64,000 nucleotides of DNA from NCBI RefSeq assembly GCF_936916975.1, contig NZ_CAKZGO010000004.1:496001-560000 (forward strand), given 5' to 3'. Origin of the DNA: an uncultured Dongia sp. Its GTDB lineage: Bacteria; Pseudomonadota; Alphaproteobacteria; Dongiales; Dongiaceae. The stretch's first letter is position 1. Each line of letters starts with the position of its first letter. A program made the translations under genes and the position numbers. The notes beneath the pieces are model-generated. The model saw only the letters and a list, made by a program, of their open reading frames with translations. It was not told the origin of the DNA and searched no databases. This document shows positions 8,241 through 31,857 of the stretch, one piece after another.

Positions 8241-9188
8241 TCAGCTTAAGATCTTGAGGGCGGCTTCGATATCGGCGGGCTGGCCGACCGACTGGCTCTC
8301 GATTTCCTTGTCGATGCGCTTCACCAGGCCGGACAGCACCTTGCCGGCACCCAGTTCGAAGACGCGCGAAACACCCAGCACTTTCATGGTCTGCACGCAT
8401 TCGCGCCAGCGCACGGTGCCGGTCACCTGTTGCACCAGCAGATCGCGAATGGTGGCGGGATCCGAGACCGGCTGCGCCGTCACATTGGCGATGACCGGCA
8501 CGACCGGCATCACGATATGGGTCTTGGCCAAGGCTTCCGCCATGGCATCTGCGGCGGGCTGCATCAGCGGGCAATGAAAAGGCGCCGAGACCGGCAGCAT
8601 GACCGAGCGCTTGGCACCGGCTTCCAATGCGAGCACACCTGCACGTTCGACGGCAGCAAGCGCGCCGGAGACGACGACCTGTGAGGGATCATTGTCATTG
8701 GCTATGGCGCAGACGAGTTTGGTTTCTTCCGCCGCCTGCGCCGCCACCTTCTGCGCGCGCTCGAGATCAAAATTGAGGAGCGCCGCCATGGCGCCCTCGC
8801 CCACCGGCACCGCCTTCTGCATCGCCTGGCCGCGCAGCTTGAGGAGGCGCGCGGTATCGGCCAGCGTGAACGCACCGGCCGCCGCCAGCGCGGAGTACTC
8901 GCCCAGGCTATGGCCGGCGACGAAGCTCGCCTTGTCGGCGAGGCGGAAATTCCCTTCCGTCTCCAGCACGCGCAAGACCGCGAGTGAGACCGCCATCAGG
9001 GCCGGCTGGGCGTTCTCGGTGAGGGTGAGGTCGCTTTCCGGTCCCTCGAACATCAGCTTGGAGAGCTTCTGCCCGAGCGCCTCGTCGACTTCCTCGAACA
9101 CCAGCCTGGCCGATGTAAATGCCTCGGCCAGGGACTTGCCCATGCCGACGGCCTGCGACCCCTGGCCCGGGAATACGAAAGCGCGCAT
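8241..9188 (-). CDS. fabD: Malonyl-CoA:ACP transacylase
   Basis: 315 aa. It moves malonyl from CoA to ACP, supplying FabF. The serine nucleophile Ser94 in GHSLGEYSALAA and His205 in SAPFHCPLM are present, as is the N-terminal FVFPGQGSQ. ATG 9188 is used because GGGAGGGATCTTG precedes it; an ATG at 9203 would lie in front of that ribosome site. First gene of the fabD-fabG-acpP-fabF-mltG run, so the main promoter should lie in 9189-9293, shared divergently with the GFA gene. Confidence 0.96.
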   Translation of the reverse strand: MRAFVFPGQGSQAVGMGKSLAEAFTSARLVFEEVDEALGQKLSKLMFEGPESDLTLTENAQPALMAVSLAVLRVLETEGNFRLADKASFVAGHSLGEYSALAAAGAFTLADTARLLKLRGQAMQKAVPVGEGAMAALLNFDLERAQKVAAQAAEETKLVCAIANDNDPSQVVVSGALAAVERAGVLALEAGAKRSVMLPVSAPFHCPLMQPAADAMAEALAKTHIVMPVVPVIANVTAQPVSDPATIRDLLVQQVTGTVRWRECVQTMKVLGVSRVFELGAGKVLSGLVKRIDKEIESQSVGQPADIEAALKILS

Positions 9189-18302: not shown

Positions 18303-19784
18303 ATGGCTAAGACCCTCCGCAACTACGTCTGCCAGTCCTGCGGCTCTGCCTTTCCGAAATGGGCCGGCAAATGCGAGGCGTGCGGCGCCTGGAACTCGAT
18401 CGTCGAGGAACCGACCGGCGGCGGCGATGTGCCCAAGGGCCTGTCCGGCAAGCGCGGCAAGGGCGTCACCTTCGTGGCGCTCGATGGCGACGTGCCGCAG
18501 ACGATCCGCCGCGCCACCGGCATGGCGGAGTTCGACCGCGTCACCGGCGGCGGCCTGGTGCGTGGCTCGGCGGTCCTCATCGGTGGCGATCCCGGCATCG
18601 GCAAATCGACCTTGATGCTGCAGGTGGTAACCACGCTCCGCGGCATTCGCGCCGCCTACATCTCCGGCGAAGAAGCGGTCGAGCAGGTGCAGCTGCGCGC
18701 ACGGCGTTTGGGCCTGGGTCCCGATGGCAGCACGCCCTCGGCCAAGACGCCGGAAGGTGAGGTGCAGACCGAGCTTGCCGCCGCAACGTCCTTGCGCGAC
18801 ATCATGGCGAGCCTCGACCGGCCGGATGCCCCACAGGTCGTCGTCATCGATTCCATCCAGACGCTCTATCTCGACAGCCTCGATTCAGCGCCGGGCACCG
18901 TGGCGCAGGTGCGTACCTGTTCGGCCGAACTCATCCGCCTCGCAAAATCCCGCGGCTTCACCTTGCTGCTGGTAGGCCACGTGACCAAGGAGGGCCAGAT
19001 CGCCGGCCCGCGCGTGCTCGAACACATGGTCGATACCGTGCTCTATTTTGAGGGCGAGCGCGGCCATCACTTCCGCATCCTGCGCTCGGTCAAGAACCGC
19101 TTCGGTCCAGCCAATGAAATCGGCGTCTTCGAGATGACCGACCGGGGTCTGGCCGAAGTACCCAACCCTTCAGCCCTGTTCCTCGCCGAGCGCCACGGCA
19201 ATATTTCCGGTGTCTCGGTCTTTGCCGGCATCGAGGGCACGCGGCCGGTCCTCGTTGAAGTGCAGGCCCTGGTCTCGCCCTCGCCGCTCGCCACGCCGCG
19301 CCGCGCCGTGGTCGGCTGGGACAGCGCGCGCCTCGCCATGACCTTGGCCGTCCTCGAAACCCGCTGTGGCCTGGGATTGGCCGGCAGCGAAGTCTATCTC
19401 AACATTGCGGGCGGCCTGCGCATCACGGAGCCGGCTGCCGACCTCTCGGTGGCCTTGGCGCTCATCTCCTCGCTCTCCGACCGGCCGGTGCCCTCTGACC
19501 TCATCGCCTTTGGCGAGATCGGCTTGTCCGGCGAGGTCCGCATGGTGACCCAGGCCGAGACCCGCCTCAAGGAAGCCGCCAAGCTCGGCTTCAAGCGCGC
19601 GATCCTGCCTAAGCGCCTCAGTCAGCCCAGCGGCAAAAAGCTGAAAGTCGAGGGGCTGGAGCTCATTGAAATCGGGCATCTCCAAGAAATGATCGATTGG
19701 CTCTATAATGAGGTCCGTTCGAACGCGCTGCAGGCCACAGTGACAGCCAGCCGGCAGCAGCATGCTGGAGATAAGCCGCGGTGA
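18303..19784 (+). CDS. radA: DNA repair protein RadA
   Basis: 493 aa. N-terminal C4 zinc finger (Cys10, Cys13, Cys24, Cys27), RecA-like ATPase with Walker A GGDPGIGKST (94-103), the RadA-specific KNRFGPANEIG motif, and a C-terminal Lon-protease-like domain (PAADLSVALALISS, AFGEIGLSGEVR). RadA drives branch migration during recombination. Its GTG-started neighbour cvpA overlaps the stop. Confidence 0.96.
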   Translation: MAKTLRNYVCQSCGSAFPKWAGKCEACGAWNSIVEEPTGGGDVPKGLSGKRGKGVTFVALDGDVPQTIRRATGMAEFDRVTGGGLVRGSAVLIGGDPGIGKSTLMLQVVTTLRGIRAAYISGEEAVEQVQLRARRLGLGPDGSTPSAKTPEGEVQTELAAATSLRDIMASLDRPDAPQVVVIDSIQTLYLDSLDSAPGTVAQVRTCSAELIRLAKSRGFTLLLVGHVTKEGQIAGPRVLEHMVDTVLYFEGERGHHFRILRSVKNRFGPANEIGVFEMTDRGLAEVPNPSALFLAERHGNISGVSVFAGIEGTRPVLVEVQALVSPSPLATPRRAVVGWDSARLAMTLAVLETRCGLGLAGSEVYLNIAGGLRITEPAADLSVALALISSLSDRPVPSDLIAFGEIGLSGEVRMVTQAETRLKEAAKLGFKRAILPKRLSQPSGKKLKVEGLELIEIGHLQEMIDWLYNEVRSNALQATVTASRQQHAGDKPR

Positions 19785-30533: not shown

Positions 30534-31061
30534 TCAATGGACCGCGAGCGATGGCATCGCGTGCTGATGCATGATCTCGTTTTGCGGCTGCGCGCGCGGC
30601 GCCAGACGCAGATCGGCCTGCGCCAAGGACGCGGCCAGCGTGGCAAGGGATGTGAAGCCGATGCGCGCGGCAGTCGGCGGCATCCATTCGCGCAGTGCGT
30701 TGTAAGCGACGAAGGATTCGCCGTGCTGTGCCGCCGACAAAGCCTGGTGGAAGATCATCTCGTCCGGGCTCACATGCCGGCATTTCAGGCAGCGGATGTC
30801 GATCTGACGGGTGGCCGAGCCGGCGACGATCATGAACAGCGAATCCAGCGCCTGCTCCGCCGGCAGCAGATCCAGTTTTCGGAACGTGTTCCCGCTCACC
30901 GTCTCGAACGGCTGTTCCAGCTTCAGGGCGGTGACCCAGGCGCGCGCCGCCCAGATCGCAAACTGGCTGGCAAAGGGTAGCGACTCGATAAAGGTTTCGC
31001 CGGAATCCTCGCCCAGCAACTGGTCCGGATGATGGGTGCAGGCATTGTCGTTGGCAGCCAT
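30534..31061 (-). CDS. Uncharacterised protein behind a Fur-like palindrome
   Basis: 175 aa, soluble, with a polar start (MAANDNACTHHPDQLLGE) and a single CLKC pair in the middle (IRCLKCRHVSPDE). A central stretch FASQFAIWAARAWVTALKLEQPF is mildly hydrophobic. I do not recognise the family. A perfect 9-1-9 palindrome of Fur type lies 64 bases upstream, so expression may respond to iron or manganese. It is transcribed alone. Confidence 0.7.
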   Translation of the reverse strand: MAANDNACTHHPDQLLGEDSGETFIESLPFASQFAIWAARAWVTALKLEQPFETVSGNTFRKLDLLPAEQALDSLFMIVAGSATRQIDIRCLKCRHVSPDEMIFHQALSAAQHGESFVAYNALREWMPPTAARIGFTSLATLAASLAQADLRLAPRAQPQNEIMHQHAMPSLAVH

Positions 31062-31124
31062 GTAAACAACCTCGTGGCGTGGTGAATCGACCCCCGGAAG
31101 GCACCCTAAAACACCTCGATTCTA

Positions 31125-31143
31125 ATTGCAAATGATTTGCAAT
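31125..31143. promoter_or_regulatory. Fur/Mur-like palindrome
   Basis: ATTGCAAAT-G-ATTTGCAAT is a perfect inverted repeat with the 7-1-7 core TGCAAATGATTTGCA seen in Fur-family sites. It lies between two divergent genes, nearer to the minus-strand one. Nothing else is seen in the 208-base gap apart from the downstream gene's start region. Confidence 0.55.
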
Positions 31144-31269: not shown

Positions 31270-31857
31270 ATGACCCTCTCCCGCCTGGCCCCGATCGGGC
31301 TGTTGATCGCGTTCCTCGTCGCCGGCTGCGATACGCCACCGGACCGGCAGCGTTTCCCCGATATCACCTTCCAGCATCTGCCGCCGATCAGGCTCGACGT
31401 GGCGCAGATCGAGATTGGCAGCAATTACCGCAGCAGTGATCACGCAGACGACAACGGCGCCGAATATCCAGCCTTGCCGGAGACTCTGGTGGCCGATTGG
31501 GCGCGCGACCGGCTGCAGGCGGCGGGTGAACGCGGCCAGGCCAATTTCACCATCGTCGAAGCCCGCGCCGTGCGGGTGCCGCTGCCGCGCTCATCCGGCC
31601 TCAATGCAGCGCTGAAGACCGAGCAATCCGACCGCTATGACCTGGCGCTCACGGTCAAACTGGAAGCGGGCAACCCGATCAGCGGCAAATCCGGCGTGGT
31701 CACCGAAACGGTGACAAGGTCGCAGACCGTCCCGGAGAACATGACGCTCAACCAGCGCGAGGCGGTGCTGTTCAATCTCCTCGATGCCGCCATGAAGGAC
31801 CTCAACGCGCGGCTTGAGGCGAGCATTCCGCAATATATGGGTCCGCTGCTGCGCTGA
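31270..31857 (+). CDS. Uncharacterised lipoprotein
   Basis: 195 aa with a lipoprotein signal peptide: LIAFLVAGC places the lipid-carrying Cys at about residue 19, and Asp at +2 hints at retention in the inner membrane if the E. coli rule holds. The mature part has an alpha/beta look ([30 protein letters not shown]) and ends in a helix. No family recognised. Confidence 0.8.

Follow-up and report, generated by a model that had tools for sequence, protein, structure and literature searches.

A predicted Fur operator accompanies an unnamed family of small helical proteins in Alphaproteobacteria

Results

The window, the whole stretch of 64,000 nucleotides of a Dongia genome analysed here, carries on its minus strand a gene for a 175-aa protein with an ATG start (30534-31061), recognised as an open reading frame and placed by homologue searches in an unnamed alphaproteobacterial family. 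A ribosome-binding-like GAGG can be read 8 bases before the ATG (31070-31073, minus strand). The start codon is separated by 63 bases from the sequence ATTGCAAATGATTTGCAAT at 31125-31143, in which 9-base, fully complementary arms flank a single central base. The initial annotation had described a perfect 19-base palindrome with a 7-1-7 core of Fur type. The arms indeed pair at all positions and the Fur type holds, but the palindrome actually extends to 9-1-9. Based on shuffles, a genome scan and conservation in relatives, we predict this palindrome, ATTGCAAATgATTTGCAAT, to be a Fur operator (no strand assigned). A predicted lipoprotein gene of 195 aa (31270-31857, plus strand) diverges from the common intergenic region. 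It has no Pfam or NCBIfam match and stands beside the family gene only in the window and in L030-L032. Downstream of the 175-aa gene, a histidine kinase gene follows after 60 bases, and such a gene is also next in L030 and L032.

When the window was shuffled, matches to the site with at most 3 mismatches appeared at a mean of 0.01, and two matches in none of the 100 shuffles. Across the genome, which comprises 5,477,478 bases in 47 contigs, the 17-mer TTGCAAATNATTTGCAA with its centre left free has a single exact copy, and the same scan returned 8 more sites at 3 mismatches versus 1 for a reversed control pattern. The 175-aa gene was found in five of the six other genomes of the genus. Upstream of it the 17-mer is exact in four of these five relatives (L015-L018) and shows 3 mismatches in L020; three of the four match the full 19-mer without a difference, and L018 deviates at the final base.

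The 19-mer is identical, at 19 of 19 bases, to the core of the operator co-crystallised with Fur of Magnetospirillum gryphiswaldense (MgFur). According to the report of the MgFur structures with operator DNA, the co-crystal operator is the natural feoAB1 operator with three base changes, which make it near-palindromic, and the affinity of MgFur for this engineered operator is about that for the natural one (PMC4506495). Over the entire 25-mer of the co-crystal, the window matches at 20 positions and the genus relative L015 at 23. Three Fur-family genes are present in the Dongia genome. L012 scores above the Irr cut-offs, while the Zur-like L013 and the Fur-like L011 both stay below curated cut-offs, L011 reaching 98.2 bits with the NCBIfam Fur entry PRK09462 (cut-off 146). 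The top PDB match of L011 is MgFur (4ray, E 4e-61; runner-up 2e-51), and the residues that correspond to the MgFur DNA contacts Lys15, Tyr56 and Arg57 are identical in the alignment, which was read by eye.

Association of the box with the family was scored upstream of family genes over a fixed 15-position Fur core, counting sites with at least 13 of the 15 positions. In set one (38 loci, including 8 from the near-genome search) a box was present in 34, with a best downstream score of 12; sets two to four are the fairer tests, as the core pattern was drawn up after viewing the sites of close relatives. Set two had a box in 24 of 26 loci, 9 of them at 15/15. Among control genes, 22 of 307 reached at least 13 and none 15/15, these controls being the other genes of the set-two loci only, with bfd, bfr and a tandem family copy among them as maybe true Fur targets. 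Only two of seven loci had the box in set three, where three misses come from one genus, which also gave a set-two miss, and a further one is the sole non-alphaproteobacterial match. The remaining, mostly weaker class matches (set four) had it in 47 of 55, with 14 at 15/15. In the class sample of 118 places, 114 family genes could be scored; 100 of these have a box (27 of 30 from set one, plus 24, 2 and 47), and 14 lack it. The 114 are made up of 5 genus and 25 further loci of set one, 26 of set two, 3 of set three and 55 of set four. Left unscored were L190, L191 and L206, with less than 300 bases upstream, and one second fragment of an already scored gene.

Three named members from Azospirillum, annotated as "hypothetical protein", carry a 14/15 box in all three cases scored, and all end in -LLH; L132 (Azospirillum B510), unannotated and with a guessed start, was excluded from the counts. 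The Dongia genome itself has a second, diverged family copy (L069 7732-8262, contig C21) with a 15/15 box at 8300-8316. It ends in His and is divergent from a flavin-dependent reductase gene. The start codons of L009 and of this paralogue were chosen by hand, since the longest open reading frame crosses the site. In the genus that gave the misses of sets two and three (L086 and L140-L142), members of the family are retained together with their final His, but no box of at least 13/15 occurs within 470 bases.

A looser Fur pattern gave 28 sites in the genome, versus 4 for a control pattern, and 27 of them were examined, the window site included (L113 overlaps L112). Nine of the 27 lie at the starts of iron-linked genes or 175-aa family members. 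Similar sites before known iron genes, whose absence the initial annotation had named among the refuting conditions, were thus found (exbB, three TonB receptors and imelysin), and the others of the nine precede an ECF sigma gene beside fecR, a DUF2061 gene, the second family copy and the window gene. Another 12 fall within predicted genes, RNase E included, and may be chance. DUF2061, bfd and several hypothetical genes are reported to be raised by loss of fur in Caulobacter crescentus; the hypothetical genes CC_2367 and CC_2904 respond strongly both to this loss and to limited iron (PMC3751524). The single Nramp/mntH-type gene, the manganese-uptake gene examined, has no Fur-type site upstream, its best score being 10/15; for this reason we favour iron over manganese. 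The initial annotation had proposed an iron or manganese response: the sites at iron genes and the MgFur-like Fur support the iron part, and the siteless mntH speaks against the manganese part. A search with the C-terminal domain of FeoB, which Fur commonly controls, found no such gene in the genome. One of the two single-mismatch sites of the looser pattern lies in the interior of an RNase E/G gene (L109 1501-1517; C20:192285).

The inner half-site of the palindrome, TTGCAA (31126-31131, minus strand), is predicted to serve the 175-aa gene as its -35 element, and TAGGGT (31103-31108, minus strand) as its -10 element, giving the arrangement TTGCAA-17-TAGGGT. This prediction comes from the comparison of 33 family promoters, which are the 34 boxed set-one loci minus L045. 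TANNNT is found exactly 17 bp past the TTGCAA half-site in 14 of the 33. Without the five close Dongia promoters the figure is 9 of 28; these same 28 hold two more occurrences at 18 bp, one at 16 bp and three at other offsets (offsets 8-27 tested). A generic promoter scan with a threshold of 9 out of 12 consensus bases listed no promoter at the site, so that the -10 element is absent from that scan.

Of 48 loci, 7 have a gene for Bfr, Bfd, HemP or a TonB receptor no further than three genes from the family member, and 1 has an iron gene at offsets 4-7; several query proteins were drawn from the counted loci, which makes this count a support and not a clean test. At the family position of two of the 48 loci (L083 and L096) the automatic caller picked another frame. 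An eighth locus, that of the Dongia paralogue, has the flavin reductase nearby, and an imelysin gene lies 4-5 kb from the family gene in two Azospirillum records. Immediately ahead of the family gene, four of the 48 loci (L076, L086, L093 and L099) have a gene from one chemotaxis-receptor-like cluster (read by eye). A contig assigned to an Anaerolineae genome closely resembles an alphaproteobacterial one when their ORFs are compared one by one (L035/L036), a sign that this public genome may have been binned wrongly.

Relatives of the 175-aa protein are present in 16 of 61 near genomes and in 95 of the 385 class genomes sampled, where they occupy the 118 places mentioned above. Under a stricter limit they were found in 41 of 398 phylum genomes, 40 of the 41 being alphaproteobacterial. 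Plasmid searches with L054 and L048 found Azospirillum records, and those with the window protein and L098 gave no match. Neither the window protein nor its relatives have a convincing family in Pfam, NCBIfam, PHROGs or PDB sequences. Weak matches of one to three members, for instance to DUF6628 (E 0.0097) and YnfU (E 0.017), were taken as chance. In the open-licence PMC literature we found no description of the family; the gene may have been listed before as a predicted Fur target. Alphaproteobacterial Fur/Mur regulons were reportedly the subject of a comparative study by Rodionov in 2006.

An AlphaFold2 model built from 65 sequences has a confident, all-helical core, with a mean pLDDT of 89.2 and about 93-98 in blocks of residues 21-150. 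Searches with this model, by Foldseek against PDB and BFVD and by VIA-align, gave no convincing structural relative; the best scores were E 0.23 (Foldseek) and Z 4.6 (VIA-align), a weak result that is no proof of a new fold. Ferritin-like and cobalamin-enzyme entries in the structural results were at noise level. In the alignment of the 65 members, from which L024 was omitted as near-identical to L023 and in which genes present in two loci were entered once, Arg40 and Glu101 are invariant (65/65). The window protein has the CxxC pair indicated in the initial annotation, as CLKC at residues 91-94 (codons 30780-30791, minus strand) in a Cys/His-rich loop. As the defining feature of the family this pair was rejected, being found in only 34 of 65 members. 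C94 is present in 51 of 65, and loop 88-98 holds at least two Cys/His in 53 of 65 members versus about 7% of other 11-residue stretches. Fer2_BFD gave no Pfam match in the window protein or the 65 members, and the hemP domain PF10636 is absent from the same proteins. Bfd and HemP are small iron-linked proteins whose genes adjoin family members in a few loci, but their domains are not those of the family. The seven closest members (window, L015-L020) have an invariant N-D-N motif at the N-terminus, in a low-confidence region of the model.

The window protein ends in A-V-H, and its C-terminal Val-His (30537-30542, minus strand) resembles the end of Lon degrons. C-terminal His is found in 48 of the 65 better matches, the preceding residue being L, V, I, M or F in 47, and in 24 of 54 weaker matches, always after a hydrophobic residue (24/24). 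Among neighbour ORFs, 8 of 460 end in His and 2 of 460 in hydrophobic-His. Just 7 of the 65 end in [LI][LIV]H, the degron in its strict form. Lon is encoded in the Dongia genome. The window also contains a weak second Lon_C match (19428-19625, in a 498-aa frame; 25.5 bits, cut-off 21.1).

Discussion

According to the sequence comparisons, the box travels with the 175-aa gene family across the class, and most of the carriers examined have the family under a Fur box. The observation of the initial annotation and its Fur interpretation stand: Fur very probably targets the 175-aa gene, which would respond to iron shortage, and the unnamed family is probably part of how these bacteria cope with it. 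Since the inner half-site is predicted to double as the -35 element, Fur should repress the gene when iron is plentiful. We hypothesize that, under these conditions, an iron-loaded Fur dimer would occupy the palindrome and, with the -35 element hidden beneath it, prevent transcription. When iron is scarce, Fur would leave the site and the 175-aa gene would be expressed, its product belonging to a family, spread through the class, of small all-helical proteins that would be made in iron shortage. Once iron is back, the hydrophobic-His tail could act as a Lon degron, allowing fast removal of the protein. The sequence comparisons themselves establish the site with its conservation and promoter geometry, the Fur homologue, the family and the frequent final His; Fur binding at this site, repression, turnover by Lon and any biochemical role of the product are what we infer from these features. 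The family, present in 95 of the 385 class genomes and without an entry in the Pfam and NCBIfam copies searched, provides a ready list of genes to be examined for a part in iron shortage.

The proposed control resembles known alphaproteobacterial systems. The feoAB1 operator of M. gryphiswaldense has the same 19-bp core in its crystallised form; three bases set the natural form apart, and what it controls is a ferrous transporter (PMC4506495). MgFur is the closest solved relative of the Fur encoded in the Dongia genome. In Gluconacetobacter diazotrophicus, the Fur box is described as a 19-bp inverted repeat of 9-1-9 form too, a likeness in architecture (PMC9368920). In the Fur regulon of C. 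crescentus, as reported, Fur boxes cover promoter elements of iron-uptake operons, and DUF2061 is a target (PMC3751524); in the Dongia genome the box is likewise predicted to overlap promoter elements, and DUF2061 has a site too.

Regarding the role of the protein, the analysis gives two leads: the tail of Lon type and the loop rich in Cys/His. LarA of Caulobacter, a heat-shock activator of Lon, is described as having a C-terminal His that acts as a Lon degron (PMC10665427). C-terminal Lon degrons of the form x-[LI]-[LIV]-H were reported for a class of Yersinia proteins that resemble the end of SulA, with variation in the degron form being tolerated (PMC11986505). Exchange of His for Asp weakened recognition in both systems (PMC10665427, PMC11986505); the purified His to Asp variant of LarA was still degraded in vitro, with a delay (PMC10665427). 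The window protein shares its hydrophobic-His end with LarA, an alphaproteobacterial stress protein with a V-H end and a transferable degron. By description, LarA is set apart by its 89 residues and heat-shock control (PMC10665427), versus 175 residues, a Fur box and a helical core here. Many family members also have, as the SulA-type degrons do (PMC11986505), a final His after a hydrophobic residue, but the antepenultimate residue of the family is often T, A, S or R. In the available main text of a Lon proteomics study (eLife 2021, PMC8545394), the four Caulobacter hypothetical locus tags of interest are not mentioned.

Considering these likenesses, we tentatively propose that the tail could be a Lon degron and the protein short-lived, an analogy that we hold with less than even confidence, the more so since C-terminal His is found in less than half of the weaker matches. 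The common C-terminal His offers a concrete way of testing whether iron control is connected to the Lon protease. It is tempting to go further and imagine the family as the iron-starvation counterpart of LarA: repressed by Fur, docking to Lon and itself degraded, while meanwhile redirecting or activating Lon, or handing over iron proteins to it. We regard this extension as improbable, and slightly more so in view of the weaker matches. If true, a LarA-like family would let an alphaproteobacterium rebuild its proteome for iron shortage by turnover as well as by transcription.

The second lead would make the protein a carrier of iron or another metal, with the Cys/His loop and the C-terminal His as ligands and the His not serving as a degron. 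The two or more Cys/His residues that most members have in loop 88-98 would suit such a function, and so would the Bfr, Bfd and flavin reductase genes among the neighbours in some loci. However, the family has no invariant ligand pair, its invariant residues being R40 and E101, and the tail is a low-confidence part of the model (pLDDT 64-72 over the last 15 residues) and is variable in length. We thus consider a metal carrier possible but rather doubtful.

As for the regulator, it could act as Mur, a manganese sensor, which would place the 175-aa gene in the manganese response. L011 also matches strongly the Fur-type entries 5fd5/5fd6, which we take to be rhizobial proteins of the Mur group, and the Dongia genome encodes Irr, which occurs in rhizobia that use Mur. 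Nevertheless, the best match of L011 is MgFur, genes for siderophore-type receptors, exbB and imelysin have such sites in front of them, the sole Nramp/mntH gene is siteless, and bacterioferritin, Bfd or HemP genes adjoin some family genes. Together, these observations make a Mur-type regulator quite unlikely, and we keep Fur as the predicted regulator.

It might also be argued that the site chiefly controls the divergent lipoprotein gene at 31270. The site is located in the common intergenic region, with 126 bases to the lipoprotein start codon, and Dongia-type loci keep the lipoprotein gene alongside. It stands beside the family gene in loci of this type only, however, while the box accompanies the 175-aa family class-wide, and the -35/-10 geometry is directed at the 175-aa gene. 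We therefore find this option very unlikely.

That the palindrome is a mere chance match is contradicted by the comparative data, since close relatives have it in the same place and degenerate versions of it are found throughout the class, so that chance can practically be dismissed even if isolated short palindromes do occur and three viral-contig stretches have the exact 19-mer with no link to the 175-aa family. Those three stretches contain one weak family match (E 0.004), which lies away from the site and does not adjoin it; the viral copies look like chance and were rejected as a link to the family.

Going back to Fur as the regulator of the 175-aa gene, Irr is also encoded and may share the control by iron. 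Between the Irr gene and a rubrerythrin-like gene lies a two-mismatch site of the looser pattern (L116 1501-1517; C4:602927; sequence read by eye), a site that Irr rather than Fur may use.
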